The position numbers and the translations under genes were made by a program. DNA of 39,898 nt, taken from positions 1 through 39,898 of the forward strand of contig JAILQZ010000076.1 in assembly GCA_024698685.1 (NCBI GenBank), written 5' to 3'. The notes under the pieces were generated by a model. It saw only the letters and a program-made list of their open reading frames with translations. It did no database searches and was not told where the DNA came from. The number at the start of each line of letters is the position of its first letter. Position 1 is the stretch's first letter. The DNA comes from a bacterium (GTDB taxonomy: Bacteria; Actinomycetota; Coriobacteriia; Coriobacteriales; CADBOM01). Shown one piece after another: positions 6,926-26,926 of this stretch.

Positions 6926-7483
6926 ATGAAATTCGTATGTCCAGTTTGCGGTTACGTCGAGGAGTATGATGGCGACGAGCTGCCCGCCGATTTCGTGTGT
7001 CCACAGTGCAAGGTTCCCGGCAGCCGCTTCCTCAAGCAGGCTGACGAGCTCACTTGGGCTGCCGAGCATGTTGTAGGCGTCGGCAAGGTCGAGGGCGTCC
7101 CCGAGGACATCATCGCCGACCTGCGCAGCAACTACGAGGGCGAGTGCACCGAGGTTGGAATGTACCTCGCAATGGCGCGCGTCGCGTTCCGTGAGGGATA
7201 TCCCGAGATCGGCCTCTATTGGGAGAAGGCAGCCTACGAGGAGGCAGAGCATGCCGCCAAGTTCGCCGAGCTCCTCGGCGAGGTCGTCACCGACTCCACC
7301 AAGAAGAACCTCGAGATGCGCGTTGAGGCCGAAAACGGCGCAACCGCCGGCAAGACCGACCTTGCCAAGCGCGCCAAGGCCCTCAACCTCGATGCCATCC
7401 ACGACACCGTCCACGAGATGGCTCGCGACGAGGCCCGTCACGGCAAGGCCTTCAAGGGACTGCTCGACAGGTACTTCGGCTAA
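6926..7483 (+). CDS. reverse rubrerythrin (N-terminal rubredoxin domain followed by ferritin-like diiron domain)
   Basis: [35 protein letters not shown] is a rubredoxin-type CxxC...CxxC, followed by [17 protein letters not shown]...[15 protein letters not shown]...[20 protein letters not shown] aaaggaggagaa before the ATG at 6926. Confidence 0.92.
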
Positions 7484-7531
7484 GAGCGCCACAAGGTCAT
7501 CCGCGCTCCACGGCGACTAGTGCCAAGCCGC

Positions 7532-7566
7532 TCCGCCCTCCCCAAGTCGGGGAGGGCGGATTTTTT
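7532..7566 (+). terminator. rho-independent terminator of the rubrerythrin gene
   Basis: TCCGCCCTCCCC-AAGT-CGGGGAGGGCGGA followed by TTTTTT. Confidence 0.9.
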
Positions 7567-7630
7567 CCAGCGCATCTTGGAAAACCGAGGCGTCCGGTGC
7601 TGCGCGGCGAAAAGCCCATGGATCAAGTTT

Positions 7631-7647
7631 CAACTTATGCTAAGTTG
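7631..7647. promoter_or_regulatory. putative operator palindrome CAACTTA-TGC-TAAGTTG
   Basis: Perfect 7-bp arms with a 3-bp spacer in the intergenic region upstream of the flavoenzyme gene. Confidence 0.4.
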
Positions 7648-7735
7648 GCGCGCCTCTCGCGGATTCGCGTTTGCAGCCCCTAAATCGCAGAAATATCAAT
7701 GCGCGCGATATTTACTGTTTCCAATCGTTCTCAAC

Positions 7736-7751
7736 ACGCTACAATTAGCGT
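7736..7751. promoter_or_regulatory. putative operator palindrome ACGCTA-CAAT-TAGCGT overlapping a TACAAT (-10-like) hexamer
   Basis: Perfect 6-bp arms; TACAAT at 7740-7745 lies within the dyad, about 75 bp upstream of the ATG at 7820. Confidence 0.4.
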
Positions 7752-7819
7752 AAGGAAGTTAGCGCTTCGATGGGTGCACTATGCACTCAGTCCTAGAGTC
7801 TTGTATGAAGGAGGATTAA

Positions 7820-9814
7820 ATGGGATCTGAAAAGTATAAGCGCTGTTTTGAGCCCCTCACCATCAAGGGCGTCACGTTCAAGAACCGCATCGTCTGCACT
7901 CCGCACATCCATGCATGGGGTTCCCGCGGTCTCGTCACCGCCGAGCAGGCGGCTGAGTACGAGCGCATCGCAGCGGGCGGTCCGGCAATCGTGACTCTCG
8001 GCAACTGCGCCGTCAACATGAAGGAGTGCTCCGACGAGGTCAGCCAGATCGACCTCTCGCAAGAGCCCGTGCTTCTCGGACTCAACGTCCTTCGCGAGCG
8101 CGTCAATCGCTGGGGCTGCCAGATCTCCGCGCAGATCAACTACGCAGGCCGCAACGCCTGGTATCCGGGCAGCGTCTTCTATGCTCCCTCGCCGATTCCG
8201 TCGCCGGGCGAGCTTGAGAGGGCAGCAGCAGAGGGTCGTCGTCCCAGGGTTCCGATCGAGCTCACCAAGGAGAAGATCATCGAGATCGAGGATCTCTACA
8301 TCGGCGGCGCCATCAAGCTCAAGAGGGCCGGCTTCAAGGTCATCCAGCTCCACTGCGCGCACAACAATCTGATCGGCCAGTTCTTCAGCCCGATCTCCAA
8401 CCACCGCACCGACGAGTATGGCTGCGACACCTATGAGAACCGCACCCGCTTCGTCATGAACATCCTCAGGGGTATCCGCAAGGCTTGCGGCAACGACCTC
8501 ATCATCGACATCCGCATGTCCGGCGAGGACAAGCTTCCCAACGCGCTCACCGTCGATGAGGCAGTCGAGATCTCCAAGATCATGGAGCCCTACTGCGACA
8601 TCTTCACGATCTCCAACGCCTTCCACATGGCTCCTCCGTCGATTGCCGGCAAGATGTCCCTCGGCATGTATCTGCCGCAGATTCCGCTGGTCGACTACAC
8701 TTGGAAGTTCAAGAACGCTCTCAAGAAGGCCAAGATCACCTTCACCACTTGCGTCATGAATCTCGACAACGCCGAGCAGCTCCTCGAGAGCGGAGTTTGC
8801 GACTTCGTCGGAATGTTCCGCCCGTTCCTCGCAGATCCCGATATCGTCAAGAAGTCCGCGCGCGGCAAGATCGACGACATCAACTTCTGCATCCGCTGCG
8901 AGTATCACAACCGCTTCATCTTCCACCAGCCCATCGGCTGCGCGGTCAACCCGCTGGTAGGCCATAGCCTCGAGTTCCCGTATGGCAAGCTCCCGCAGAT
9001 CGACGAGCCCAAGAAGCTCATGATCGTCGGTGGCGGCCCTGCTGGCATGCAGGCTGCGGTTACCGCCCGCAAGCGCGGATTCGACGTCGTCCTCTACGAG
9101 GCCAAGGATCGCCTCGGCGGCGCTCTCTACTGGGCGCAGGAGCTCCCGTTCAAGCGCGAGATCGAGAAGTACACCAATTACATCATCAGGCAGGTCGAGG
9201 CCTCTGGTGCCGAGATCAAGCTCGGTGTCAAGGCAACCCCCGAGACCGTTGCGGCCGAGAACCCGGACTTCCTCTTCATCGCCATCGGCGGCGACTACAC
9301 CAAGCCTCCTATCAAGGGCATCGATGGCCCGAACGTCTGCTACAGCTATGAGGCTGACGCGGGCGAGGTCGAGCTCGGCGATGAGATCGTCATCATCGGT
9401 GGTGGCCTGGTCGGCATGGAGTCCGCGATGTACTTCGCGCGCGACTGCGGCAAGAAGGTCACCGTTATCGACGCTGCTCCGCAGGCTGTCTGCGCAATGG
9501 CATGCAAGAGCAACTACGCCGCGTTCCTGCAGTGGATGGACGAGGGCGGCGCAGACTACAAGCTGATCTACGATGCCGCCATCACCGAGATCAAGGACGG
9601 CTCCGTCGTCTTCTTCCAGGGTGGCCGCATGCAGGAGATCAAGGCCGACAACGTACTCGTTGCAACCGGTATGCGCCCGAAGATCGAGGAGATCGACTCC
9701 TTCAGGCATACCCTCCCGGAGACCGACGTCTACATCCTCGGCTACAACTGCGTCAATGGCACCATCGGCGATGCAACCAACGCAGCGTTCGATATCGCAG
9801 CGCACGTCTTCTAA
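7820..9814 (+). CDS. NADH:flavin oxidoreductase / Old Yellow Enzyme family with C-terminal FAD/NAD(P) domain (enoate reductase / 2,4-dienoyl-CoA reductase / BaiCD-like)
   Basis: N-terminal FMN barrel FEPLTIKGVTFKNRIVCTPHIHAWGSRGLVTAEQAAEYERIAAGG, QLHCAHNNLIGQFFSPISNHRTDEYG, and two Rossmann motifs KLMIVGGGPAGMQAA and EIVIIGGGLVGMESA. RBS aaggagga. Confidence 0.9.
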   Translation: MGSEKYKRCFEPLTIKGVTFKNRIVCTPHIHAWGSRGLVTAEQAAEYERIAAGGPAIVTLGNCAVNMKECSDEVSQIDLSQEPVLLGLNVLRERVNRWGCQISAQINYAGRNAWYPGSVFYAPSPIPSPGELERAAAEGRRPRVPIELTKEKIIEIEDLYIGGAIKLKRAGFKVIQLHCAHNNLIGQFFSPISNHRTDEYGCDTYENRTRFVMNILRGIRKACGNDLIIDIRMSGEDKLPNALTVDEAVEISKIMEPYCDIFTISNAFHMAPPSIAGKMSLGMYLPQIPLVDYTWKFKNALKKAKITFTTCVMNLDNAEQLLESGVCDFVGMFRPFLADPDIVKKSARGKIDDINFCIRCEYHNRFIFHQPIGCAVNPLVGHSLEFPYGKLPQIDEPKKLMIVGGGPAGMQAAVTARKRGFDVVLYEAKDRLGGALYWAQELPFKREIEKYTNYIIRQVEASGAEIKLGVKATPETVAAENPDFLFIAIGGDYTKPPIKGIDGPNVCYSYEADAGEVELGDEIVIIGGGLVGMESAMYFARDCGKKVTVIDAAPQAVCAMACKSNYAAFLQWMDEGGADYKLIYDAAITEIKDGSVVFFQGGRMQEIKADNVLVATGMRPKIEEIDSFRHTLPETDVYILGYNCVNGTIGDATNAAFDIAAHVF

Positions 9815-10355: not shown

Positions 10356-12911
10356 ATGGCTGACTACCAAGAATTCCTGGATTCAATCGATCGCGAGGCC
10401 TACCATGCAGGGGAGTGGCAGTGGGAGGAGGACGGCTACACCGTCACCCGCACATACCACTATTCGCCGCCGGGGTGCCATACCTCGTGCGGAATCCTGA
10501 TCTACGTCAAGGACGGCAAGGTCGAGAAGGTCGAGGGCGACCCGCTCGATCCGTGCACCAACGGCAAGCTCTGCATCAAGTGCCTCATGCTTCCCGAGGC
10601 CATCAACAGCCCACAGCGCGTGAAGTACCCGATGCGGCGCGCGGGCGAGCGCGGGGAGAACAAGTGGGAGCGCATCACCTGGGACGAGGCCTACGACGAG
10701 ATCGAGGCCAAGGTCCGCGAGATCTGGGAGACCGACGGCGGCTACGCGATCATGTGCATCCACGGCACCGGCCGCAACATCAACTGGCAGGTTCCTTTCT
10801 TCGGTCAGGCCGCGCTGAAGACGCCGAACATCTCGACCTTCGCGTTCACTGGCTTCTCCTGCTACATGCCGCGCGTGTGCGGCTGCATCGCGCCCTTCGG
10901 CGACTTCACCGTGGTGGACGCGTCGCAGTGCCACGAGGAGCGCTACAACAACGAGGAGTGGGTTCCGCCAGAGGTCCTGGTGGTCTGGGGAAACGAGCCG
11001 CTGGCATCAAACGCCGATGGCTACATCGGCCACTGGCTCGTGCAGTGCGTCCAGATGGGCACGCGGATCATCTCGATCGACCCGCGCCTCACGTGGTGGG
11101 GCGCTCGCGCCGAGCACTGGCTGCAGATCAGGCCGGGCACCGATGCCGCGCTCGCGTGCGCATGGCTCAACGTGATCATCGAGGAGGATCTCTACGACCA
11201 CGAGGCGGTCGAGTACTGGTGCGCCGGCTTCGACCAGCTCGCCGAGGCGGTCAAGGAGATGACCCCGGAGTGGGCTGCGCCCATCTGCGACCTCGATGCC
11301 GACGACATCCGCGCCTCCGCGCGAACCTACGCGGCCGGAAACCCCTCGGCCATCCAGTGGGGCCTCTCGTTCGACCAGCAGCTCTCCGCGATGGCGCTGT
11401 GCCTCGCAGGCTGCGACCTCATGGCCATCTGCGGCAACGTCGACGTGCCCGGCGGCAACATCCTCGTGCACAACGCGTTCGAATGCAATGCGGGCTACGC
11501 ATCGGGCGAGGCCTTCACGCCGCCTGAGTGGCGCGCTCTCAAGCTCAACAACAGCTTCGGCCTCGGTATCGAAGGTGGCGATTTCGTGGCTCACGCGGCG
11601 TCTGACCCGCTCCTGCAGGCAATCGAGGAGGACTTCCCATATCCGATCAAGATGCTGTGGATGCAATCGTCCAACACCATCTCGTGCCCGGGCATGGACG
11701 CGCCGCGCGTTCTGGCCGCGATGCAGAAGGTCCCCTTCATCGTCAATGCCGACCCGTTCCTCACGCCGACCTCTGTCGCCTGCGCCGACATCCTGCTGCC
11801 GGTGGCGATGAGCGCCGAGCGCAACTCGGCCCGCACCTGGTGGACCCCGGCTCGCGCGATGGTCGCGGTCACGCAGTTCTACGAGGCCAAATCGGACGAG
11901 ACGATCATCATTGAGCTGGGCAAGCGCCTCAACCCCGAGGTCTTCGGCCAGTGGGACAACGACATCGACTTCCTCAACTGGTACCTCCACGACGGCACCG
12001 GCTCGTTCTCCGCTACCACCGAGGCCACGGATCAGAGCGGCTCCGTCAACTCCGGCAAGACGCTCTTCCCGGCGGACAAGGACTGGATCAACCTCGTCCA
12101 GGATCCCGACATGTGCGGTCACAGGTACGACGAGTTCAACGCCACCTATTACAAGGCCGCCAAGGGCATGTTCAGGCCCGATGGCTCCGTCGGCTACGGC
12201 ACCCCGTCCGGCCGTCTCGAGCTCACCCCGCTGCTCTACCAGTACTGGGGCCTGCGCACCACGCCGTTCCACACCGAGCCGCCCTACGGCCCGATCTCCA
12301 CGCCCGAGCTCATGGAGGAGTACCCGCTCATCCTCACGTGCGGCGGTCGCTCCTTCGAGTTCTTCCATAGCGAGCATCGACAGCTGCCCACGGCGCGCGA
12401 GTTGCATCCCGTGCCGCTGGTGATGATCAACCCGAAGACCGCGGAGAAGTACGGCATCCACGAGGGCCAGTGGGTGTGGATCGAGAACGACCATGGCCGC
12501 TTCAAGCAGGTCGCCAAGATCACCCCGCGTGTCAACGAGAAGACCGTCCACGCCGAGCACGGCTGGTGGTTCCCAGAGGCCAGGCCAGAGGCGCCGTACT
12601 TCTTCGACACCTTCGAGTCGAACCCCAACAACTGCACGCGCGCTTTCCTCGCAGGGCAGGGAGGCGTAGGCTCGCCGATCAAGTCGATGATCTGCAAGAT
12701 CTACCCGGTGCAGGATGGCGACATCACGCCCACGCAGGTGGTTGCCGAGCAGGGCAACTTCGATCAGTACGTAAAGATGGAGTCGCCGCGCAAGGCCGAG
12801 ATCGAGAAGTTCCACGAGCTTACTGCCAAGGGCTGGTCGTTCAATCCGTGGACCAACGAGGTCACCGATCCTGAGACTGGCGAGAAAGCCAACCTCAAGG
12901 AGTTCGTCTAA
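10356..12911 (+). CDS. molybdopterin-dependent oxidoreductase (DMSO reductase superfamily), cytoplasmic-type catalytic subunit without obvious Tat signal
   Basis: Fe-S motif SPPGCHTSCGILIYVKDGKVEKVEGDPLDPCTNGKLCIKCL, ITWDEAYDEIEAKVREIW, GNVDVPGGNILV, PTSVACADILLPVAMSAERNSARTWW, molydopterin-dinucleotide-binding C-terminus. The upstream in-frame ORF extension from 10203 runs through intergenic repeats. Confidence 0.9.
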   Translation: MADYQEFLDSIDREAYHAGEWQWEEDGYTVTRTYHYSPPGCHTSCGILIYVKDGKVEKVEGDPLDPCTNGKLCIKCLMLPEAINSPQRVKYPMRRAGERGENKWERITWDEAYDEIEAKVREIWETDGGYAIMCIHGTGRNINWQVPFFGQAALKTPNISTFAFTGFSCYMPRVCGCIAPFGDFTVVDASQCHEERYNNEEWVPPEVLVVWGNEPLASNADGYIGHWLVQCVQMGTRIISIDPRLTWWGARAEHWLQIRPGTDAALACAWLNVIIEEDLYDHEAVEYWCAGFDQLAEAVKEMTPEWAAPICDLDADDIRASARTYAAGNPSAIQWGLSFDQQLSAMALCLAGCDLMAICGNVDVPGGNILVHNAFECNAGYASGEAFTPPEWRALKLNNSFGLGIEGGDFVAHAASDPLLQAIEEDFPYPIKMLWMQSSNTISCPGMDAPRVLAAMQKVPFIVNADPFLTPTSVACADILLPVAMSAERNSARTWWTPARAMVAVTQFYEAKSDETIIIELGKRLNPEVFGQWDNDIDFLNWYLHDGTGSFSATTEATDQSGSVNSGKTLFPADKDWINLVQDPDMCGHRYDEFNATYYKAAKGMFRPDGSVGYGTPSGRLELTPLLYQYWGLRTTPFHTEPPYGPISTPELMEEYPLILTCGGRSFEFFHSEHRQLPTARELHPVPLVMINPKTAEKYGIHEGQWVWIENDHGRFKQVAKITPRVNEKTVHAEHGWWFPEARPEAPYFFDTFESNPNNCTRAFLAGQGGVGSPIKSMICKIYPVQDGDITPTQVVAEQGNFDQYVKMESPRKAEIEKFHELTAKGWSFNPWTNEVTDPETGEKANLKEFV

Positions 12912-12945
12912 ACCCGCAGCAGCAGCGTTCATAGCACTACCTAGT

Positions 12946-12976
12946 GCCCCGATGCCGAGTGCGTCGGGGCTCTTTT
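12946..12976 (+). terminator. rho-independent terminator of the molybdoenzyme gene
   Basis: GCCCCGA-TGCCGAGTGCG-TCGGGGC followed by TCTTTT. Confidence 0.8.
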
Positions 12977-13179
12977 ACAGTTCCAGTAGGCTATAACCTG
13001 CAGCCAACTCATCACTCCTCCTTCCTTCAAATGCTGGATTCAAATCAGGGTCCGCCATGCTTTTCTTTCTAAATTTGCGCACTTCGCGTCCGCGCGAAAT
13101 CGCGACAAGCGCAGCAGTTGCGCGCCCCGACACTTGTGCTACACTTGTAAACGCTTGGAGACAGGCCGATTTCCTGTGG

Positions 13180-13460
13180 CCTCGCAGGGGTTACGGCAGG
13201 CGGGTGGCACGCGCCGCCGGCAAGCGCGTTACCTGCGGGGATGAACAAGTGAACCAGGTGGGAATCCTGGGTGGGGCCGCCGCTGTATGCGACAAGCGTG
13301 AACGTCCCGAGGGCGAAAGCCGGTCACTGGGGCAACCTGGGAAGGCTGGCGTTCACGCGCAGGATGGCGCAGGCGGGTGCGGGCAAGATCGCGGGCAACC
13401 GCGCGGCGCCGCAACCGCAGACGCGCGTCTGAGAGTCGCGAGCCAGAAGACCTACGGGAA
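13180..13460 (+). ncRNA. cobalamin (B12) riboswitch
   Basis: Core elements in order: GAACCAGGTGGGAATCCTGGGTGGGGCCGCCGCTGT, CCCGAGGGCGAAAGCCGGTCACTGGGGCAACCTGGGAAGGC, and terminal B12 box GAGAGTCGCGAGCCAGAAGACCTACGG. Boundaries approximate. Confidence 0.88.
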
Positions 13461-13797
13461 TGGAAGATACGCTGTCTGCGATCGCCAAGTCGCAGGCGGA
13501 GACCAAGGTGCATCACGGGCCGCGCCGCAAGCGTCCAGCAGACGCTCGCTGCGGCCTGTCTGTATTTTGGGGCGGCGCGCCGTGCGCCGCATCATACCAG
13601 AGGGGGCGGGCTCTCTCTCTTCGTATCGGGGATCGGAACGGGGTTTCGAAGGGAAACCCATGGTCCGGCTGAGGCGTGCGCGCGCATGCCCCGACCTCGA
13701 TCCGGTCCTCGTTGCCTGCAAGGGCACGTGCCGCGCCAAGCGGCAGGACGAAAGGCCCCGCGGAAGGTCGCGGGCCGCGAAGAGAGGAGGAAACCTT

Positions 13798-16700
13798 ATG
13801 AGAGAGAAGCCCCTATCCACCAAGAGAGGGTTGCGCTTCCTGGGCATGCTGCTGGCATCGCTGGTGCTGGCGTTCGGCCTTGCGCTCCCTGCCTTTGCAG
13901 AATCGGGGGGGTCTGATTCAGGAGATGAGATCTGCCTCCTGGACAACGAGGTCTGGGCGTCCATATCCGGAGCCGACGTCGTATCCGCGGTTGAGACAGA
14001 GGTCCCAGAGGACTTCGCGCCCGAGCTATTCCCCGAGGCTAAGTGCTGGGACGTGACGCTGTCGGGCATCGAGGAGTACGACGAGATCACCCTCTCGGCT
14101 CGCACGCTGGGCGACCCTCCGACGCAGGATGATTTCTCCAAGGCGCTGTCGACCGCGGGGTTCTCGAGCGAGGATGAGCTAGACCAGGGGACGTGGTTCG
14201 AAATCCGATCCATGGCGATAGCTAACTACGTGCAGGATGCCGCGAGGTACGACTACGTGCTCGAGATCGAGCTCGAGGACGGCGAGATGATGTTCGTCCT
14301 GTTCTACTACAGGGACAACATCGCGGTATACGATCCCGACCTGGCCACCCCCGCCGCCCTGATCTTCAGGTTCCACATCGACAATTCGACCCCGCCTGAC
14401 CCTCAGCCATCTGATCAGATGATTACGAAAGCTATCCCGTTATGTGGTCAATTCGAGAATGAAAATGCGCTCTACGGATCAGTTGAACATGAGCAGAATG
14501 CCTATGCATGCGACCATGCAACTTATCTGGTAGTCCCAAATGACGTTGATAAGGTAGATGTGGCGCTTACATTCAACGCTAATGATTACGAAGTAGCAGT
14601 CAACGGTGTCGCTCAAAGGCCGATATCAGACGAAAACGAGCTAGTAGTTTCGCTAAATGCCGCCCCCAAGTCGAGATTTGGTATGTCTCAAGATTCCGTA
14701 AACTCGATTGTTGTTACAAAGGGCGACAAGGCGACAACGTATAAGGTGTTTGTTGTCAGTCAAAGATTTGATGATCTGCCCAGTTCAGTCGTTGAGTATC
14801 TCTGCATTGGATCCCAGTACACTAACGATCGCAGTGGTGCAGGCGATTATGGAACAAGGGCTGTGCGATCTCTTGTTGGAAGTAATTATTCTGCTGGCGG
14901 AGAGGCTTCAGGTCCAGTGTCTCTTGGCGGGTTCGGCGGATACATCATTTACAAGTTCGACGACCCAATCAAGGATGATTCGAATAATCCTTACGGAATA
15001 GATTTCATTGTTTTCGGCAACGCATATAAGGGGAGTCAAGAATTTGGCGAGCCAGGTCAAGTCTGGGTTAGTGAAGATGGCGAGACTTGGTATGCGCTTG
15101 CGGGTGGCATGCACTATGAGGATTACGCAAGTTGGGATTACTCGATAACGTATTCCAAGAATGGTAATGGAAGTACGACGATTACAGATGCTAATGGGAG
15201 CTCAAAAACGTACCGTGATCTCTATTATCCCGATCCACTTAAATACCCCTATTTTGATTCCAGTGGACAAAGCGATGATAGCCTGACGGTATCTGGGATT
15301 TGTTTCGAGTCCGAAAATGAGCTTGATCCTTCTGGAAGCGAAATGGCTCAACATGCTGGTTTTGGATATGCTGACCTTGGGAGCTCAGGGACGAAGTTGC
15401 CTGATGAAAGTACAGAAGGCTGGATGGAATATAACATCCCAGATCCTGAAAACTCGGGTTCTACAATTGGCTCCATTTTGAGTGAGGTGGGATACGAAAA
15501 GCTCGCCCGCAATATTGCACTGAATCCTTATGCTGATTATCCATCTGGCGATGATATAGGTAATTATGACGCCCCAACCGATGGCATGGATCTCGCGTGG
15601 GCTGTTGACAAAGACGGTCAGCCTGTAGATGTTAGCAACAAGGAATTCCATTACGTAAAAATTGTGACCGCGACCAATATTGTAAATCCGTCGCTCGGTG
15701 AGAAGTCCACCGAGGTCAACATGGTGCGTGTGGCGCAAGCTGCCGACTCTGCAGTTGGCAAGACCGGCGCACCGGCGAAGATTACGGTTGACGGCGTTGA
15801 TGTCCCACTTGAGGACGGCAAGTTCGTCTATGACGATGTTGTCGTTGACGGCGCTTTCCAAGTTGCCGTCGATGCTCCTGAGGATGCGCACGTCTACATC
15901 AACAACAACTGCGCCGCTAGCGCGGACTACGACAAGATTCCCGACCACAAGATCATCCGCGTGATCGTTCAGGAGGGCGAGAAGGAGCCCGCAATCTACA
16001 TTCTCAACCTTGTTGAGGGCGAGCTGCCGGATATCAACACTCCGCCCGCCCTGGCTGATGACGTTGCGGCTGCTGTTGAGGCCGAGGCAGTTGTCGGCGA
16101 GCCCTACGTTGTCGATCTGAGCGGAATCTTCGTGGACGAGGATGGCGACGAGATCACCTACAAGGTGACGGATCACAGCGGCGTTACCGTCGACATCCCC
16201 GCTATCTACAGTTTCACCTACGAGGAGCCTGGCACCTATACGCTGGTGTTCACCGCCAATGACGGCCAGGCTGACTCGCCGACCTACACGGTGACTCTGA
16301 CCGTTTCCGAGCCCGCTCCCGCCTACGCCCCCGGCTGGAACAGAGACGCAGATGGAGATTGGATCTACGTCAACGAGGACGGCTCGATCCGCACCAACGG
16401 CTGGGCCAAGGACTCCAAGGGCTGGTGCTACCTCGGCGATGACGGCAAGATCGTCAAGTCGAAGTGGATCAAGGACACCAACGGCGAGTGGTACTACCTC
16501 AAGGACAACGGATACATGGCTGCCAACGAGTGGGCAAAGGACAGCCACGGCTGGATGTATATGGCATCCAACGGAAAGATCACCAAGGGCAAGTGGGTCA
16601 AGTACAAGGGAGAGTGGTACTACCTCAAGGCCAACGGCTACATGGCCGCCAACGAGTGGGCCAAGGATTCCAAGGGCTGGATGTACATGGACTCCTCGGG

Positions 16701-16839
16701 CAAGATCACCAAGAGCAAGTGGGTCAAATACAACGGATCGTGGTACTACCTGAAGGCCGACGGCTATATGGCCACTGGCACGCAGACCATCAATGGCAAG
16801 ACCTACAAGTTCGCGAGTTCGGGCAAGTGGATCAGCTAG
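13798..16839 (+). CDS. large secreted surface protein with signal peptide, Ig/cadherin-like domain and C-terminal cell-wall/choline-binding-type repeats; downstream of the cobalamin riboswitch
   Basis: RBS gagaggaggaaacctt before ATG at 13798; signal peptide MREKPLSTKRGLRFLGMLLASLVLAFGLALPAFAES. C-terminus has repeated GWAKDSKGW.YL...GKIVKSKWIK..NGEWYYLK.NGYMAANEWAKDS units. The ORF-track start at 13057 reads through the riboswitch and is rejected. Confidence 0.88.
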   Translation: MREKPLSTKRGLRFLGMLLASLVLAFGLALPAFAESGGSDSGDEICLLDNEVWASISGADVVSAVETEVPEDFAPELFPEAKCWDVTLSGIEEYDEITLSARTLGDPPTQDDFSKALSTAGFSSEDELDQGTWFEIRSMAIANYVQDAARYDYVLEIELEDGEMMFVLFYYRDNIAVYDPDLATPAALIFRFHIDNSTPPDPQPSDQMITKAIPLCGQFENENALYGSVEHEQNAYACDHATYLVVPNDVDKVDVALTFNANDYEVAVNGVAQRPISDENELVVSLNAAPKSRFGMSQDSVNSIVVTKGDKATTYKVFVVSQRFDDLPSSVVEYLCIGSQYTNDRSGAGDYGTRAVRSLVGSNYSAGGEASGPVSLGGFGGYIIYKFDDPIKDDSNNPYGIDFIVFGNAYKGSQEFGEPGQVWVSEDGETWYALAGGMHYEDYASWDYSITYSKNGNGSTTITDANGSSKTYRDLYYPDPLKYPYFDSSGQSDDSLTVSGICFESENELDPSGSEMAQHAGFGYADLGSSGTKLPDESTEGWMEYNIPDPENSGSTIGSILSEVGYEKLARNIALNPYADYPSGDDIGNYDAPTDGMDLAWAVDKDGQPVDVSNKEFHYVKIVTATNIVNPSLGEKSTEVNMVRVAQAADSAVGKTGAPAKITVDGVDVPLEDGKFVYDDVVVDGAFQVAVDAPEDAHVYINNNCAASADYDKIPDHKIIRVIVQEGEKEPAIYILNLVEGELPDINTPPALADDVAAAVEAEAVVGEPYVVDLSGIFVDEDGDEITYKVTDHSGVTVDIPAIYSFTYEEPGTYTLVFTANDGQADSPTYTVTLTVSEPAPAYAPGWNRDADGDWIYVNEDGSIRTNGWAKDSKGWCYLGDDGKIVKSKWIKDTNGEWYYLKDNGYMAANEWAKDSHGWMYMASNGKITKGKWVKYKGEWYYLKANGYMAANEWAKDSKGWMYMDSSGKITKSKWVKYNGSWYYLKADGYMATGTQTINGKTYKFASSGKWIS
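16333..16836 (+). repeat. cell-wall-binding repeat region (about 20-aa alternating units) inside the surface protein
   Basis: Repeated units such as GWAKDSKGWCYLGDDGKIVKSKWIKDTNGEWYYLKDNGYMAANEWAKDSHGWMYMASNGKITKGKWVKYKGEWYYLKANGYMAANEW. Confidence 0.85.
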
Positions 16840-17003: not shown

Positions 17004-18173
17004 ATGAAGAGAAAAAGCCTGAAGGTAGCCTTCAGTTGGGCGTTTGCGCTCGCGCTGGCCATATCGCTTTTCGCGCTAGTCGCTTGCTCGGGGTCGGGCG
17101 GGAACTCCGGCATCGAGCAGTTGACCTTCGCCCGCAATTCCGCGGATTCGCTGACGCTTTCCTGGGTTGACTCCACCGATTCCGGATCCGAGGCCTACAC
17201 GGTGATCCGCCGCTGCACAGACCAAGAGGATGCACAGTGGAACGTTGTTGGGAGCATCGAGTCCAACGGAGCTGCAGATGGCAAGGCCGTCGAGTTCACC
17301 GACAAGCTTCCCTCAAGCGATCCGATCATCTACGAGTATCGCGTGATCCCTAAGGGAGCCAGCGATGTGGAGGAGCTTGTTGCGAAGGACAGGGTGGATT
17401 CCGCTCCCGGCGCTTCTATCTACGCCAGCTCGATCCTGATCTGCCTCGACCCCGGCCACTATGCTGGCTGCAATGACGTGCCCGATGGGGAGTATCCGTA
17501 TTGCGAGGGCGACGTCATGCTCGACCTCGCGAAGGCGCTGCAAGAGGACCTGCTCGGCTACGGCATCACCTGCAAGCTGACCCGCGACTCGGGCAGCATC
17601 ACCCTCGGAGGCCTGACCGATGCCGACCTCGATTCGGCGAATCCGGCGCTGAGGGGTGAGCAGGCCGAGGGCTGCAACCTCTTCATTTCGCTCCACACCG
17701 GCTCCAATCAGGAGAACGTGAACAGGCACGAAACCTACGACCAGCCCATCGGCATCACCAAGACGATCGTGCTGATGAACAAGCAGGCCGTAAAGGACCC
17801 GTATGCGATTGCGGTTGGAAACGAGATAGGGAAGCGCGTCACTGCGACCAACTACGAGCATGGCTATGCAAGCTTGGAGGAGTTCGGCGCGGCGGAGTCG
17901 TTCGCCGACATGACCGCATGGACCGATGAGTTCAATGATGCCCTTCATACCAAGGGAACGCTCTGCTACTCGAACAAGGGCGATGCACGCGATTACGGCG
18001 TGCTCGAGGGTGCGGATAGCATCGGGGTCAGCGGCATGGTGATCGAGCACGCCTTCCATACGGTGCCTGTCATGCGCAAGGCGTTCAATAAGGAGGACCT
18101 TGTTGCCGAATGGGCGGCATGCGATGCCGAGGGAATCGCGGTAGGGTTCGGATTCCTCATCGAAGAGGATTGA
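17004..18173 (+). CDS. lipoprotein with fibronectin-III-like segment and N-acetylmuramoyl-L-alanine amidase (Amidase_3) domain
   Basis: Lipobox LFALVACSG; amidase motifs ICLDPGHYAG...YCEGDVMLDLAKALQEDL...LTRDSG...LFISLHTGS...VIEHAFHT. Confidence 0.8.
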   Translation: MKRKSLKVAFSWAFALALAISLFALVACSGSGGNSGIEQLTFARNSADSLTLSWVDSTDSGSEAYTVIRRCTDQEDAQWNVVGSIESNGAADGKAVEFTDKLPSSDPIIYEYRVIPKGASDVEELVAKDRVDSAPGASIYASSILICLDPGHYAGCNDVPDGEYPYCEGDVMLDLAKALQEDLLGYGITCKLTRDSGSITLGGLTDADLDSANPALRGEQAEGCNLFISLHTGSNQENVNRHETYDQPIGITKTIVLMNKQAVKDPYAIAVGNEIGKRVTATNYEHGYASLEEFGAAESFADMTAWTDEFNDALHTKGTLCYSNKGDARDYGVLEGADSIGVSGMVIEHAFHTVPVMRKAFNKEDLVAEWAACDAEGIAVGFGFLIEED

Positions 18174-18176
18174 TGG

Positions 18177-19175
18177 CTACAGGCCAGGCACGATCGACTC
18201 GTAGTCGGGCAGGAAGTTGCGCTCCACCGCGTCGAAGACCTCGTCGATGGTCCACGGGCCGTCGTACTTGGTGATTACCTTGCGCCCGATGGGGTCGGAG
18301 TACCACTTGATGTTCTCGCCGCCGAGCTCGAAGATCGAACCGCTGATCTTGGCACCTTCGTCCGATGCGAGGTAGACGAGGAAGGGGACAAGGCGCTCGG
18401 GCTCCGGCGACTGCTCGTAGGTTGCCAACGGGCGGTCGGTGAGCGCGGCTTTGAAGCTGCCGACCTCGACATGTGCCTCGAGCTCGTAGGATGAGCGAGT
18501 CTTTGCCCAGGGGCTGAACGCGTTGCAGGTGATGCCGAATTCGGCCAGTTCGATTGCTGCGCCGCGCGTGAGGCCTACGACACCCGCATTGGCGGTGCAG
18601 TATTGCACATGGCGCAAGATATCGCCGAGCCAGGCGCGAGAGGTGCAGTTGATGATGCGCCCACCGTCTCCTTGTTCCTTCATGTACGGCACCGCATGCC
18701 TCATCACGTTGAAGTATCCCTTCGGCTTGACGCTGGTTACGCGGTCCCAAAGCTCCTCGGAGATCTCGTCGAAGGGGGAGAAGCCGAAGCTTCCCGCAAT
18801 GTTGGCTACGATGTCGATGCGCCCATAGGTCTCGACGGTGAAGTCTACCAAGCGCTTGGCCTCGTCCCATTTGGAGATGTCGGCGATGCAGGGGGTGGCT
18901 TCGCAACCCATCGCCACGATTGTCTCGGCGGTGGTGTACGCATCGCCCTGCGTTTCCTCGCGTGCTCTGTCGAACCACGTCTTACGCTCGTCGCTGAGCT
19001 TGGCGTAGTCCTCGTCCTTCATGACACCACCGCTGGTGAGCGAGCCGTCAAGCCGCTTCTCGTTGTTCGTGACGACCTTCGCGCCCTGCTGCGCGAATCC
19101 GATAGCAATGGCGCGTCCGACTCCCTGGCCCGACCCGGTTACCAACGCCACTTTGCCTTCAAGCTTGCCTGCCAT
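18177..19175 (-). CDS. short-chain dehydrogenase/reductase (SDR)
   Basis: MAGKLEGKVALVTGSGQGVGRAIAIGFAQQGAKVV...VANIAGSFGF...YCTANAGVVGLTRGAAIELAEFGITCNAFSP. RBS gagagga upstream of the ATG at 19175. The classical YxxxK is read as YCTAN. Confidence 0.85.
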   Translation of the reverse strand: MAGKLEGKVALVTGSGQGVGRAIAIGFAQQGAKVVTNNEKRLDGSLTSGGVMKDEDYAKLSDERKTWFDRAREETQGDAYTTAETIVAMGCEATPCIADISKWDEAKRLVDFTVETYGRIDIVANIAGSFGFSPFDEISEELWDRVTSVKPKGYFNVMRHAVPYMKEQGDGGRIINCTSRAWLGDILRHVQYCTANAGVVGLTRGAAIELAEFGITCNAFSPWAKTRSSYELEAHVEVGSFKAALTDRPLATYEQSPEPERLVPFLVYLASDEGAKISGSIFELGGENIKWYSDPIGRKVITKYDGPWTIDEVFDAVERNFLPDYESIVPGL

Positions 19176-19416
19176 GTTGTTGATCCTCTCTTTGAAAGGG
19201 CCGCAGAGCAGCCGCCATGCCCATTTCCATGACAATGAAATGATAGCAGCATTCGGTTTGCGAGAATGAATAAGAGAATAGCAGCCGTATATTCAATATT
19301 TCGCAATTTCGGCAATGCATTATGCCAGCTAGATGCAAAAAAGCGCGTATCTAGAGGTTATAATCAAATGTTAGTGAAAAGCAGGGCGATAGCCATGACG
19401 TTGCATTGGGGCGAGT

Positions 19417-22400
19417 ATGTCCAAATTGTTCAAGGGAATAGCTTCGGTTCTTCTTTCCATCGTATTGCTGGTGGCCTATACGCCTACCTTCTCCTTCGCA
19501 TCCGACGAAGCGGAAGATTCTGCTGTCGAGCAGGTGCAAGAGAACGAAGCCACCGAAGCCGACGAACCCGAGGAACCAACTGGAGAGCAGGAGACCGAAG
19601 CTCCTGCAGACCCGGAACCTGAGGCCGATGCCGTTCCGGCTCCCGAAGCCAACGTTGCCTCCGAGGTCGCAAGCTCCAACTCCAAGAGCACTCCCGCATC
19701 CGATGGTTCCGGCTCCGCCAAAGCGCCCACTCGCGGCGCTGCGAGCGAGGCCGCTGCGCTCACCGGATTGCTGGTCTTCTCCGGCGTCACTCCCAAGAAG
19801 GACAACGTTCTTATCAGGAATGCCTCTGATTCCTCCTACAGCGATCCCCGCACTGTGACGTTCAGTCCTGATATATTCGACTACGAGCTGGCCGATGTTG
19901 CCGACAACGGCAAGGACGCCTCCGCCTCCAACGCCCTCACGCAACTGAGGTTCCGTCCCGTTGTCAACGTCGAGGGCTCCACCGTCACCTTGAAGTACAA
20001 GGGCCTCGATGGCGCTCCGGCAACCAAGGACATCACCTGGTCTGGATCGGGCAACTCGTCGTTCGCCAACTGCCTGAACCTGGGCTCCAACGAGCTCGAA
20101 ATCGTGGTCGATCCACCTGAGGGCTCGGATTTGGCATCCACCACCTACAAGATCAAGGTCGACTGCCTTCCCACGCTCAAGGAGCTCTCGCTGACCCAGG
20201 GCGGCTCGCAGGTCTACCTCGACAAGGCCTTTGCATCCATGAGCTACAACTATTCGATTACGGTTCCGAGCAGCGTGGAGACCATCGATGTGGCAGCTAC
20301 CGCAACGGGCAGCGGCTGCACGATCGCCTACAACGGCTCCAGCTCCTCCGCTGTCGACATCAGCGACGAGAGCGTCGATTCGATTGATGTTGCGGTTTCT
20401 GCGAGCAAGGGCTCGTTTTCCGCCACGAATGTCTACACGATTGCGATTGACCGCATCGATTCCACCGCCGTTGGCTTCAACGTCACGCCGAGCGATGCGA
20501 TGCTCTCCGTCTACGATTCCTCCGGTGCCGCGGTCAAGCCCGATGCCGATGGCAAGTACACGGTGATGCCCGGCGAGTCGCTGGCTTACGTGGCAAGCAA
20601 GGCTGGCTATCGCTCGGCAACGGGTACGATCGATGGCTCCCAGGCAATGATCGATATCACGCTTGAGCAGGGCTCGTCGCTGCCCGATGTCGACTCCAGT
20701 TGGCCGTACTTCCGTGGCGATGATTCCAACATGGCCATCGTCGATTACGAAACTCCAGTAGATGTCTCATTGACCGACCTCATCTGGGTCGTCGCGCTTG
20801 GCGAAAACGCCGGTTCGGGTTCGTTCGATAATGCGCCATCGGTGCAGATCATCGTCGACAACGCGCTCGTCGTGCTGAGCAACAAAACCATCTACAAGCT
20901 CGACCTCAATACCGGCGAGGTTCTTGCGCGGGGCGAGATGGTGGAGAGGCCCAACTGGGGCTACACGCCGCCGACCTACGCAGACGGCATGATCTTCGCA
21001 CCGCTTGCCAACGGAACGATACAAGCCTTCGATGCCAAGACACTGGAGTCTCTATGGGTCTACAAGGATCCGCTGAAGGGCCAGTCGCTCTCACCGATCA
21101 CCTATTCTGAGGGATGCATCTACACGGGCTTCTGGCGTAGCTACACCAGCGATGCCAATTACGTCTGCCTGACCACGACCGACGAGGATCCGTCGAGCAC
21201 CAACGAGCAGAAGAGCCCGTCGTGGCGCTTCTCGCTTAGGGGCGGCTTCTATTGGGCTGGTGCTGCAACAGTTGGCGATGTGCTGATCATCGGAACCTCC
21301 AACGGTCAGAGCGACGACAGCTCGACGACCACCCCCGCGCACATCCTCTCGATTGACAAGCGCACCGGGCAGGTCATCTCCAGCCTAGACATCGCGGGCA
21401 CCCAGCGCAGCTCGATCGCCTATGACGAATCGACCAGCCAAGCATACTTCGTCACCAAGGCCGGCATGCTCTACCGCGTTGACGTCGATCCCGCCACTGG
21501 CGCCCTCAGCAACCTGAAGTCCGCGAAAGTGGGCCACGAGTCGACCTCGACTCCCGTGGTCTACGATGGAGTCGTGTACTTCGGTTGCGGCGATGGGTTT
21601 GAGCAGGGCTACGTCATGGCCTACGATTCCTCGACGCTCAAGAAGATCTTCGAGATATCTGCACCTGGCAATGTGCAGTCTTCGCTGCTGCTCTCCACAG
21701 CGTATGAGGACACAGGCTACATCTATCTATACTTCACCTACAACAACCCGCCTGGCGGCCTTGGCATGCTCAAGGTCAAGAACCCGCCGGCTTCCGCTTC
21801 CGATGCCGAATATGTTGACATCTACGATGCAACGGGCTACGAGCAGTACAACATCACATCGCCTATAGCTGGTCCTGATGGCACGATCTACTTCAAGAAC
21901 GACAGCGGTCGCGTCTTCGCAGTTGCCGCCATCAGTGCAAAGGCTGCCGAGCGCGCCATCGATGCCATCGGCGAGGTGACCCTCGAGTCCGAGGGCGCGA
22001 TCAACTCAGCCCGCAGGATCTACGACAAGCTTTCCGAGGCCGAAAAGGCCAAGGTTTCCAACTACGACGTGCTTCTCGCTGCCGAGGCGAAGCTTGCCGA
22101 GCTGAAGAAGGAGGCCGAAGACAAGGATAAGGACAAGGATCAGGGCGGCAACGGCGGCAAGGTCACGCCCAAACCTGGTGGATCGTCCGCTAACGGAGCT
22201 GGCGGGTATACCCGATCGCTCGGTCTGACGCTTGCAACCAAGAGCTCCCTTGCTGGCGTTAGCGCCAAGGCCGCCGAGCTCTCTGCAGCCGATAAGGCGG
22301 CAATCGCGCGCGCCGAAAAGCTCGGTCACATCGGTGATGCCCCGCTGGCAGAGGATATCTCCGGCCTGCTGACCTGGGCTGTCATCGGCGGCGCGGCGCT

Positions 22401-22482
22401 GCTGGTCCTGTTCCTGTTGTTGCTGCTCAGGCGCAACAACGACGACGACGACGAAGAAGAAGAGAGCGCGGAAGGGGAGTAG
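19417..22482 (+). CDS. surface-anchored protein: signal peptide, cadherin-like beta-sandwich domain(s), PEGA-like domain, PQQ-type beta-propeller, C-terminal TM helix and acidic tail
   Basis: MSKLFKGIASVLLSIVLLVAYTPTFSFAS signal; FSPDIFDYELAD...NELEIVVDPPEGSDLASTTYKIKV; VTPSDAMLSVYDSSGAAVKPDADGKYTVMPGESLAYVASKAGYRSATGTI; repeated propeller blades (IYKLDLNTGEVL, IQAFDAKTLESLWVYKD, ILSIDKRTGQVISSLD, VMAYDSSTLKKIFEI); C-terminus LLVLFLLLLLRRNNDDDDEEEESAEGE. Confidence 0.8.
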   Translation: MSKLFKGIASVLLSIVLLVAYTPTFSFASDEAEDSAVEQVQENEATEADEPEEPTGEQETEAPADPEPEADAVPAPEANVASEVASSNSKSTPASDGSGSAKAPTRGAASEAAALTGLLVFSGVTPKKDNVLIRNASDSSYSDPRTVTFSPDIFDYELADVADNGKDASASNALTQLRFRPVVNVEGSTVTLKYKGLDGAPATKDITWSGSGNSSFANCLNLGSNELEIVVDPPEGSDLASTTYKIKVDCLPTLKELSLTQGGSQVYLDKAFASMSYNYSITVPSSVETIDVAATATGSGCTIAYNGSSSSAVDISDESVDSIDVAVSASKGSFSATNVYTIAIDRIDSTAVGFNVTPSDAMLSVYDSSGAAVKPDADGKYTVMPGESLAYVASKAGYRSATGTIDGSQAMIDITLEQGSSLPDVDSSWPYFRGDDSNMAIVDYETPVDVSLTDLIWVVALGENAGSGSFDNAPSVQIIVDNALVVLSNKTIYKLDLNTGEVLARGEMVERPNWGYTPPTYADGMIFAPLANGTIQAFDAKTLESLWVYKDPLKGQSLSPITYSEGCIYTGFWRSYTSDANYVCLTTTDEDPSSTNEQKSPSWRFSLRGGFYWAGAATVGDVLIIGTSNGQSDDSSTTTPAHILSIDKRTGQVISSLDIAGTQRSSIAYDESTSQAYFVTKAGMLYRVDVDPATGALSNLKSAKVGHESTSTPVVYDGVVYFGCGDGFEQGYVMAYDSSTLKKIFEISAPGNVQSSLLLSTAYEDTGYIYLYFTYNNPPGGLGMLKVKNPPASASDAEYVDIYDATGYEQYNITSPIAGPDGTIYFKNDSGRVFAVAAISAKAAERAIDAIGEVTLESEGAINSARRIYDKLSEAEKAKVSNYDVLLAAEAKLAELKKEAEDKDKDKDQGGNGGKVTPKPGGSSANGAGGYTRSLGLTLATKSSLAGVSAKAAELSAADKAAIARAEKLGHIGDAPLAEDISGLLTWAVIGGAALLVLFLLLLLRRNNDDDDEEEESAEGE

Positions 22483-22483
22483 C

Positions 22484-23371
22484 ATGGACGAGGCATTCAG
22501 CCGCTTTCATCCTGCCGTGAACTTCATCTTCTTCATCGCTGCAGTAGTGTTCGGAATGTTCTTCGTGCACCCGGTGTTCCTCGCTGTCTCCGTGGTCTGC
22601 TCAATCACCTACTACTTGCTTATCCACGGAGCCAAGGGACTCAAGTTCATCGCGGTCATGGCCGTCGTCTTCGTCTTCGTCACGTTGATCAATCCAGTTT
22701 TCAACACGCTGGGAGATCACGTTCTCTTCACCTACTTCGGCGGCCGGCCCTACACGCTCGAGGCGCTTGGGTACGGCGCTGCCATCGCTGGGATGTTCGT
22801 AAGCATCCTCGTCTGGTTCGGCTGCTACAACGCGATCATGACCAGCGACAAGTTCACCTATCTCTTCGGCAGGTTCATCCCGTCTATCTCGCTGATCCTT
22901 ACGATGGTCCTGCGCTTGGTTCCCAACTACAAGCGCCATTTCGAGACGCTATCCAACGCGCGCGAGTGCATCGGCAAAGCGCCGGCCTCGGCAGACCGCA
23001 AGGAGAAGGTCGCCAACTCGGTCACGCTCATCTCGGCGCTCACTTCCTGGGCGCTTGAAGGGGGAGTGGTCACCGGCGATTCGATGCGCAGCAGAGGATA
23101 TGGCGAGGCCAGGCGCACCAATTTCGCCATCTACCGCATCTCCGTGCGCGACAAGGTAGTCACGGGACTCATGATAGTTGCCATCGCTGCCGTTGCGTTC
23201 TGCATGTTCAACGGAGTGATGCACGTCGACTACACGCCCGTTTTCGCGATTTCGCCCATCACCGCATTATCGATTGTCGGGATAGTCGCTTACGCTATCC
23301 TTCTGGCAATTCCGTCAGCGATTCACATCATGGAGGAAGCCACATGGCGCATTTTACGCTCGAGAATCTGA
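22484..23371 (+). CDS. ECF transporter transmembrane T component (CbiQ/EcfT family), copy 1
   Basis: FSRFHPAVNFIFFIAAVVFGMFFVHPVFLAVS...MVLRLVPNYKRHFETLSNARECIG...DSMRSRGYGEARRTNF (EcfT coupling-helix-type R-rich segment). Confidence 0.85.
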   Translation: MDEAFSRFHPAVNFIFFIAAVVFGMFFVHPVFLAVSVVCSITYYLLIHGAKGLKFIAVMAVVFVFVTLINPVFNTLGDHVLFTYFGGRPYTLEALGYGAAIAGMFVSILVWFGCYNAIMTSDKFTYLFGRFIPSISLILTMVLRLVPNYKRHFETLSNARECIGKAPASADRKEKVANSVTLISALTSWALEGGVVTGDSMRSRGYGEARRTNFAIYRISVRDKVVTGLMIVAIAAVAFCMFNGVMHVDYTPVFAISPITALSIVGIVAYAILLAIPSAIHIMEEATWRILRSRI

Positions 23372-25014
23372 CATTCGCGTATCCCACATCGGATAAGCAG
23401 GCGCTCAGCGACATCAACCTTTCGATCGAGAAGGGCCAGTACGTCACGCTCTGCGGAAAGAGCGGGTCGGGCAAGTCCACTCTCATGCGCCATCTCAAGA
23501 GCGTGCTCACTCCTCACGGCGACCGCAGCGGCCGCGTGCTTTTCGAGGGGCGCGAGCTAAGCACCGTGGACATGCGCGAGCAGAGCTCGAAGATTGGATT
23601 CGTCATGCAGAATCCGGACAACCAGATCGTCACCGACAAGGTCTGGCACGAGCTCGCCTTCGGGCTCGAGAGCCTTGGTTGCGACCAGAAGGTCATGCGC
23701 CTGCGCGTTGCCGAGATGGCTAGCTACTTCGGCATCCAGAAGTGGTTCCACAAGGATGTCTCCGAGCTCTCCGGCGGCCAGAAGCAGCTGCTCAATCTCG
23801 CGTCGATCATGGCCATGCAGCCCAGCGTCCTCATCCTCGACGAGCCCACGAGCCAGCTCGATCCGATTGCTGCGACCGACTTCCTCAACACCGTTCGCAA
23901 GATCAACCTCGAGCTCGGCACGACGATCATCATCTCCGAGCACAGGCTCGAGGACGTCTTCTCCGTGGCCGACAGGCTCATCGTCATGGATCAGGGCCGC
24001 ATCATCGCCGACGACAACCCGCGCAGGATCGGCGAGCATCTCAAGGATTCCAACGACGACATGTTCGCCGCGCTGCCATCGCCGGTGCAGATCTTCTACG
24101 GCTCGAAGAGCAATAGCGAGTGTCCGCTGACCGTGCGCGAGGGCCGCAACTGGCTCACAAGCGAATTCGAAGGCAAGGAGCTCAAGCGCACCTCCATCGA
24201 GGAGTCGCCGGAGCTGCCCGAGGTGGATGATCCTGCCATCGAGCTGCGCGAGGTTTGGTTCCGCTACGCCAAGGATGCGCCCGACGTGGTCAAGGGCGCG
24301 AGCTTCGAGGTCGAGAGGGGCACGCTCTTCGCGATCGTTGGCGGCAACGGCACGGGCAAGTCGACCACGCTCAAGTCGATCTGCAACATCTGCAAGCCAT
24401 ATCGCGGCAAGGTGCTCATCGACGGCAAGCCCATCGACAAGTACAAGTCCAACGAGCTCTTCAAGGGCAACCTCGCGATGCTTCCGCAGGATCCGCAGAG
24501 CCTCTTCGTGAAGAAGACCGTGCGCGATGAGCTCTTCGAGATGGTCGACCACCTCAAGACCGACGAGGAGAAGGCCGCCGCGGTGGATATGGTCGCAAAG
24601 CTCTGCGAAGTCGACATGTACATGGATTCGCACCCGTACGACCTCTCCGGCGGCGAGCAGCAGCGCGCCGCGCTGGCCAAGGTGCTTCTGTGCAATCCGA
24701 AGATCCTGCTGCTCGACGAGCCCACCAAGGGCATCGACAACTTCTTCAAGATCAAGCTTGCCAAGATCTTCCGCACGCTGTGCGAGCAGGGCGTTACCAT
24801 CGTCATGGCCTCCCATGACGTTGAGTTCTGCGCACGTTACGCAGACAGCGTCTCGATGTTCTTCGATGGCGGCATCGTCACCACTAACACGCCGTCGAGG
24901 TTCTTCTCGCAAAACTGCTTCTACACCACTGCCGCCAACCGCATGAGCAGGCACATGTTCCAAAACGCAATTACGAATGAAGATGTGATCGAACTATGTC
25001 TCGCGAACAGGTAA
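23344..25014 (+). CDS. ECF transporter ATPase with two fused ABC domains (EcfA1A2-type)
   Basis: Two Walker A motifs CGKSGSGKSTLM and GGNGTGKSTTL; two signatures ELSGGQKQLL and DLSGGEQQRAAL; VLILDEPTSQLDP and ILLLDEPTKGID. Confidence 0.92.
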   Translation: MAHFTLENLTFAYPTSDKQALSDINLSIEKGQYVTLCGKSGSGKSTLMRHLKSVLTPHGDRSGRVLFEGRELSTVDMREQSSKIGFVMQNPDNQIVTDKVWHELAFGLESLGCDQKVMRLRVAEMASYFGIQKWFHKDVSELSGGQKQLLNLASIMAMQPSVLILDEPTSQLDPIAATDFLNTVRKINLELGTTIIISEHRLEDVFSVADRLIVMDQGRIIADDNPRRIGEHLKDSNDDMFAALPSPVQIFYGSKSNSECPLTVREGRNWLTSEFEGKELKRTSIEESPELPEVDDPAIELREVWFRYAKDAPDVVKGASFEVERGTLFAIVGGNGTGKSTTLKSICNICKPYRGKVLIDGKPIDKYKSNELFKGNLAMLPQDPQSLFVKKTVRDELFEMVDHLKTDEEKAAAVDMVAKLCEVDMYMDSHPYDLSGGEQQRAALAKVLLCNPKILLLDEPTKGIDNFFKIKLAKIFRTLCEQGVTIVMASHDVEFCARYADSVSMFFDGGIVTTNTPSRFFSQNCFYTTAANRMSRHMFQNAITNEDVIELCLANR

Positions 25015-26918: not shown

Positions 26919-26926
26919 GAGACATC

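Follow-up and report, generated by a model that had tools for sequence, protein, structure and literature searches.

A divergent cobalamin riboswitch precedes a wall-binding protein with a BtuH-type domain, a predicted surface cobamide receptor, in a Coriobacteriales genome

To our knowledge, the capture of cobamides outside the membrane by Gram-positive gut bacteria is largely unknown, while the system of Bacteroides has been solved. Surface binders under riboswitch control are established in Bacteroides (PMC12751083). BtuH2 (BT_1956) of B. thetaiotaomicron binds B12 and matters for uptake and gut fitness, with Gln333 and Asn399 touching the ribose and phosphate of the B12 nucleotide loop (PMC8941943). 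BtuJ (DUF4465), a jelly roll, and BtuG, a beta-propeller, are lipoproteins of riboswitch-controlled surface B12 capture (PMC12751083, PMC6143338). Three Firmicutes species carry btuH homologues, among which EUBSIR_01285 of Eubacterium siraeum lies near a predicted energy-coupling factor (ECF) cobamide transporter (PMC8941943). No report of BtuH in Actinomycetota was found in the BtuH papers; preprints and most subscription journals lay outside the search and no priority is claimed. Here we describe a window of 39,898 nucleotides (contig C97 of the Coriobacteriales genome G000, 1.78 Mb in 99 contigs) in which a divergent cobalamin riboswitch aptamer (13228-13455) is followed by the gene of a secreted wall-binding protein of 1013 residues (P0001, 13798-16839) with a BtuH-type domain, both on the forward strand. 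It is highly probable that this unit (13228-16839) is a B12-repressed surface catcher of cobamides. BtuH is known from Bacteroides and the new element here is a BtuH-type domain on a Gram-positive wall.

P0001 is the first gene with a ribosome-binding site 3' of the aptamer, its ATG at 13798 lying downstream of an AGGAGG motif (13785-13790) read from the sequence. A longer open reading frame from an in-frame ATG at 13057 (1260 residues) was rejected because it would run through the riboswitch. Inspection of the translation points to a signal peptide (13798-13899) with cleavage approximately after AFA. It is followed by a Cadherin-like beta-sandwich domain (residues 235-318, 14500-14751; PF12733, E-value 1.1e-4, just under the curated cut-off), the predicted BtuH-type B12-binding domain (residues 333-654, 14794-15759), a bacterial immunoglobulin (Ig)-like domain of the Big_9 type (residues 747-835, 16036-16302; PF17963, E-value 5e-4, under the cut-off) and choline-binding or cell-wall-binding repeats (approximately residues 839-1012, 16312-16833). 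Three Pfam repeat models score over their cut-offs (PF19127 at 4.4e-16, PF01473 at 1.1e-15, and PF19085), and tandem repeats together with a signal peptide mark P0001 as a predicted choline-binding wall protein. The original prediction had named a secreted protein of this length with wall-binding repeats as the first credible gene after the riboswitch, which the ribosome-binding site, the signal peptide and the Pfam repeats bear out; its description as giant is overstated for 1013 residues. With full-length P0001 as the query, phmmer returned essentially repeat matches from the PDB, aligning with solved choline-binding proteins, and P0001 as a query against its own genome gave 39 matches, nearly all through the repeats. 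As such repeats are common to wall proteins of many roles, P0001 might serve chiefly in adhesion or wall structure and be B12-regulated incidentally, but we regard this as very improbable since the BtuH-type domain is the sole recognised domain, other than beta-sandwich spacers, between the signal peptide and the anchor.

The central domain of P0001 receives no name in Pfam and NCBIfam scans. Residues 333-654 used as a single sequence against the PDB matched BtuH2 with bound B12 (PDB ID: 7biz, E-value 1.3e-7), with no other credible match. A profile made from the window sequence and Bacillota, without Bacteroidota (profile A4), matched BtuG1/BtuGH (BT_1490; PDB ID: 8blw) at 8e-45 and 7biz at 1.7e-40. 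The match of a further profile (A1) to 7biz at 1e-122 was left unused as circular, since a near copy of BtuH2 is inside that profile. An AlphaFold prediction of the domain from 48 family members reached a predicted TM-score (pTM) of 0.83, and Foldseek with this model returned only 7biz (best, 1.4e-14) and 8blw below an E-value of 0.001; a poorer model from the non-Bacteroidota rows gave the same two structures. By sequence and predicted fold, residues 333-654 are therefore a BtuH-type domain, homologous to the C-terminal domain of approximately 300 residues through which BtuH2 binds B12 (PMC8941943). Its fold differs from those of BtuJ and BtuG, with which P0001, as read here, would share riboswitch-controlled surface capture. 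Residue mapping to BtuH2, with the numbering verified on eight published residues, places Gln333 and Asn399 at Gln340 and Asn408 of P0001 in the alignment, and this nucleotide-loop Gln and Asn are invariant across the 48 sequences.

P0001 and BtuH2/BtuGH also have in common an N-terminal beta-sandwich, a B12 riboswitch and a surface location, which is predicted here. Unlike these outer-membrane lipoproteins, P0001 is predicted to be held on the wall by choline-binding repeats, has no BtuB or BtuG partner and lies in an ECF context instead of a TonB/BtuFCD one; no TonB receptor is present among the window genes scanned. It thus falls outside BtuH in the strict Bacteroidota sense of an outer-membrane lipoprotein encoded with btuB, having wall repeats instead of a lipobox.

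The relatives of the domain lie behind cobalamin riboswitches across phyla. A tblastn search with residues 333-654 found matches on Bacteroidota plasmids. On a Bacteroides finegoldii plasmid the homologue, annotated as 'PKD-like domain-containing protein', lies within a complete B12 uptake operon in the order DUF4465 protein, homologue, lipoprotein, YncE/BtuG, TonB receptor, BtuF, BtuC and BtuD (Btu names read from the order). Its slot is the position of BtuH2 in operon 2 of B. thetaiotaomicron (PMC12751083). A family scan with one genome per species gave at least 80 loci, most of them from Bacteroidota. Using a covariance model made from other B12 riboswitches (R1), a same-strand riboswitch was found 5' of the domain in 65 of 80 loci among the matches listed and within 1.5 kb upstream in 26 of them, a distance that is no proof of co-transcription; a single opposite-strand match occurred in approximately 1.18 Mb of the loci listed. 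The aptamer core ends approximately 200-450 bases 5' of the domain match in at least 19 loci. Rfam confirms riboswitches at seven of the eight Bacillota loci checked, at one Planctomycetota locus, and at most loci with the domain on plasmids and faecal scaffolds. The expectation that homologues of P0001 follow B12 riboswitches in other genomes thus holds for its domain, and together with the BtuH-type domain itself this association supports the proposal of a surface corrinoid receptor.

In the leader of P0001, the core blocks of a B12 riboswitch can be read from the sequence in the expected order (GAACCAGGTGGGAATCCTGG, CGCCGCTGTATGCG, GCCGGTCACTGG...CCTGGGAAGGC, GCGAGCCAGAAGACCT), as had been predicted, and the alignment to RF00174 contains GGUGnnAAUCC, CNGUA, GNCACUG, GGGAAGG and AGCCAGnAGACC, likewise in order. 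A permissive cmscan search matched RF00174 at 13228-13455 with 23.3 bits, with E-values of 0.0011 over 1 kb, 0.046 over the window and 5e-4 over the whole 1.78-Mb genome. Model R1, whose training sites are mostly Coriobacteriales riboswitches unrelated to the BtuH-type domain, also found the aptamer, at 29.4 bits (E-value 0.0021 over 1.3 Mb).

Several observations weigh against reading the unit as a B12-repressed cobamide catcher. The corrin-ring contacts of BtuH2, His476, Tyr510, Trp511 and Trp577, are not kept in P0001, which has Tyr, Ser, Glu and Ser at these positions (the alignment being uncertain around 510-511), and affinity or ligand could differ. The domain might have changed its ligand, for example to another tetrapyrrole, to a corrinoid precursor or to a glycan, in which case P0001 would bind, under riboswitch control, a molecule that is not a complete cobamide. 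The ring positions also differ from BtuH2 in L063 and L086, the closest relatives, and the authors of the BtuH2 study noted a modest structural likeness to non-B12 proteins such as alginate lyase (PMC8941943). However, the ring contacts are not constant across the family and vary also in Bacteroidota copies inside B12 operons, such as L055, the nucleotide-loop pair never changes, and riboswitches still accompany the domain in the Bacillota group, so that a change of ligand appears unlikely. Since the Gln and Asn are kept and the ring contacts vary even in B12-operon homologues, we infer that B12 binding by the P0001 domain is likely.

The riboswitch itself raises further points of this kind. 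The aptamer is under the Rfam cut-off: its 23.3 bits do not reach the gathering score of 31.5, a scan at the default gathering threshold does not report it, and by that threshold it is a divergent relative of RF00174 and not a member. The predicted RF00174 match thus exists at the genome-wide E-value given above and stays below family level. The low score goes with weak P1 and P2 and a long peripheral insert (approximately 13370-13438). No orthologous copy of the riboswitch and gene was seen in the close genomes compared; the sister genome G001 has a riboswitch below threshold on contig C96, which was rejected as such a copy since it precedes a cbiK-type gene. An activating corrinoid riboswitch has also been reported (PMC10653944), which makes the sign of control uncertain. 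Finally, a search with filters off found no riboswitch ahead of the downstream ECF operon, which is a separate unit.

A gap of 343 bases separates the aptamer end from the gene start. It contains a candidate expression-platform terminator (13515-13569, forward strand), a GC hairpin at 13515-13559 followed by the T-rich CTGTATTTTG, whose role is suggested by its form and position. The region 13500-13575 folds at -41.9 kcal/mol; a stricter consensus terminator scan did not list the hairpin. The long gap with its stable hairpin, the sub-threshold score and the weak P1/P2 would fit a riboswitch without practical control of P0001, either a degenerate relic or one at which the transcript ends, the gene having its own promoter in the gap. 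We give this a similarly small chance as a changed ligand, since the core blocks are intact and significant genome-wide, and the same domain family stands behind riboswitches in dozens of genomes. A scan for sigma-70-like promoters over 12900-13850 found none, which is weak evidence in the same direction. In the leader of L063 a hairpin and T-run likewise lie 3' of the aptamer, and their presence in both leaders fits the expectation for a termination switch.

L063, a locus in a Bacillota metagenome-assembled genome from water-deer abomasum, holds the closest relative of P0001 among the matches listed (42% identity over residues 142-740 of P0001). Beyond the aligned part, the L063 protein has DUF4430 and S-layer anchor domains. 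Its gene lies behind one riboswitch and ahead of another, after which the locus encodes an alpha-toroid/S-layer protein, a DUF4430 protein and ECF components. In this locus (7234-9767), the riboswitch-linked S-layer protein with the squalene-cyclase-like alpha-toroid adjoins the DUF4430 protein; as a pair they look like the halves of vertebrate intrinsic factor/transcobalamin. Further BtuH-domain proteins of Bacillota come from Paenibacillus (L064, L066, L067, L069), Gracilibacteraceae (L086) and Sedimentibacter (L094), and share with P0001 the BtuH-type domain with a B12 riboswitch upstream; where examined (L063, L064, L086) they are wall proteins. ECF and DUF4430 genes are present beside L063 and L064, as in the wider P0001 locus. 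The Paenibacillus and Gracilibacteraceae versions join the domain with DUF4430 and wall anchors. The Bacillota proteins are anchored by S-layer homology or CWB2 domains, with DUF4430 in the same chain in L063, L064 and L086, whereas P0001 uses choline-binding repeats and has no DUF4430.

In the tree, P0001 groups with L063 at a support of 100/100, both standing among rows from Bacillota. Inside its gene, the segment 14353-15702 (forward strand) has a GC content at third codon positions (GC3) of 0.436, against approximately 0.80 on both flanking parts. No second copy of the domain was found in the 200 order-level relatives or the 350 class-level genomes searched. The GC3 dip and the placement among Bacillota suggest lateral gain, and the simplest reading would be that the receptor came from Bacillota and was then joined to a local choline-binding anchor.

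The other RF00174 riboswitch loci in this genome also lead into secreted surface proteins. On contig C78 (locus L016, 2555-5290) two B12 riboswitches stand in tandem, the first before the gene of a 113-residue AraC-type helix-turn-helix protein and the second before a surface protein with DUF4430 and choline-binding repeats (4067-5290). In the sister genome G001 (contig C40), two riboswitches are similarly placed relative to DUF4430. The L016 surface protein and P0001 share an upstream riboswitch, a signal peptide, a Cadherin-like domain and the same wall repeats, the former using the transcobalamin-type DUF4430 and the latter the BtuH-type domain. On contig C81 (L017, 6126-12623) a strong B12 riboswitch (59 bits) stands before the gene of a secreted protein with Ig-like domains and a length above 2000 residues, in which no B12-binding domain was recognised. 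On contig C36 (L018, 4664-8317) an AdoCbl-II riboswitch precedes a CbiK-type protein with an apparent lipoprotein signal, possibly an extracytoplasmic chelatase. A weakly NEAT-like protein and then a periplasmic-binding-type lipoprotein follow this gene.

Of the 54 riboswitches in 61 order-level genomes, 25 are followed on the same strand by a DUF4430 gene no more than 10 kb away, and many first genes after riboswitches appear, by a heuristic, to encode signal peptides. In vertebrate transcobalamins, the C-terminal domain is of the DUF4430 type (PMC4350170). From these counts DUF4430 seems to be a corrinoid domain that is generally linked to riboswitches in the order; a full-text literature search found no paper linking DUF4430 with 'cobalamin riboswitch'. 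The premise of the original prediction, that surface proteins are seldom under B12 riboswitches, fails for Coriobacteriales, by the loci of this genome and the DUF4430 count, and for Bacteroidota.

Downstream of P0001, after a GC hairpin, an Amidase_3-like protein with a lipobox-like signal is encoded at 17004-18173. A short-chain dehydrogenase/reductase (SDR) gene on the reverse strand (18177-19178; NCBIfam SDR models) then sits between the riboswitch unit and the ECF operon, whose genes all lie on the forward strand. The first gene of the ECF run (19417-22482) encodes a surface protein that combines Cadherin-like and beta-propeller (PQQ_2) domains with a C-terminal membrane anchor and may be an analogue of BtuG, the Bacteroides propeller protein. 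Library scans place the transporter genes at 22484-26918, with a CbiQ-like T component (22484, just under the Pfam cut-off), an ATPase (23344), an S component (24996) and a T-like membrane protein without a Pfam match (26037). A membrane-anchored DUF4430 protein follows (26927-28138; PF14478, 1.9e-15), and directly after it the operon ends with cbiL/cobI for precorrin-2 C20-methyltransferase (28151-28852; TIGR01467, 197.4 bits with a cut-off of 163.25). This position of cbiL makes corrinoid transport by the ECF run (19417-28138) likely. The proposed link of the receptor to the ECF/DUF4430 locus stands in part: cbiL ends the operon and a like surface protein adjoins ECF and DUF4430 genes in Bacillota, but the opposite-strand SDR gene and the missing riboswitch separate the units, which can cooperate and are not one operon.

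Taken as a B12-repressed catcher, the unit would work as follows. The leader riboswitch would sense intracellular cobalamin and, when cobalamin is scarce, permit transcription or translation into the gene, a direction we infer. The signal peptide would export the protein and the repeats would hold it on the cell wall, where the displayed BtuH-type domain would bind cobamides, mainly via the nucleotide loop. The cobamides concentrated in this way would be handed over for uptake to a membrane transporter, of which the ECF/DUF4430/CbiL system 2.6 kb downstream is the most plausible candidate.

The locus offers a concrete receptor candidate, combining a domain that has a solved B12-bound relative with a wall anchor and a B12 riboswitch, and a naming rule for a domain that goes unrecognised in P0001 by Pfam and NCBIfam. 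It also suggests a reason why many B12 riboswitches of the order precede surface proteins without known function. We consider it somewhat probable that Gram-positives, among them this Coriobacteriales lineage, share a general capture stage for cobamides that is displayed on the wall, is switched by B12 riboswitches and feeds an ECF transporter, with interchangeable binding domains (BtuH type, DUF4430/transcobalamin type) and anchors (choline-binding repeats, S-layer homology, CWB2). If true, such a stage would be for monoderms what the BtuG/BtuH/BtuJ surface system is for Bacteroides.

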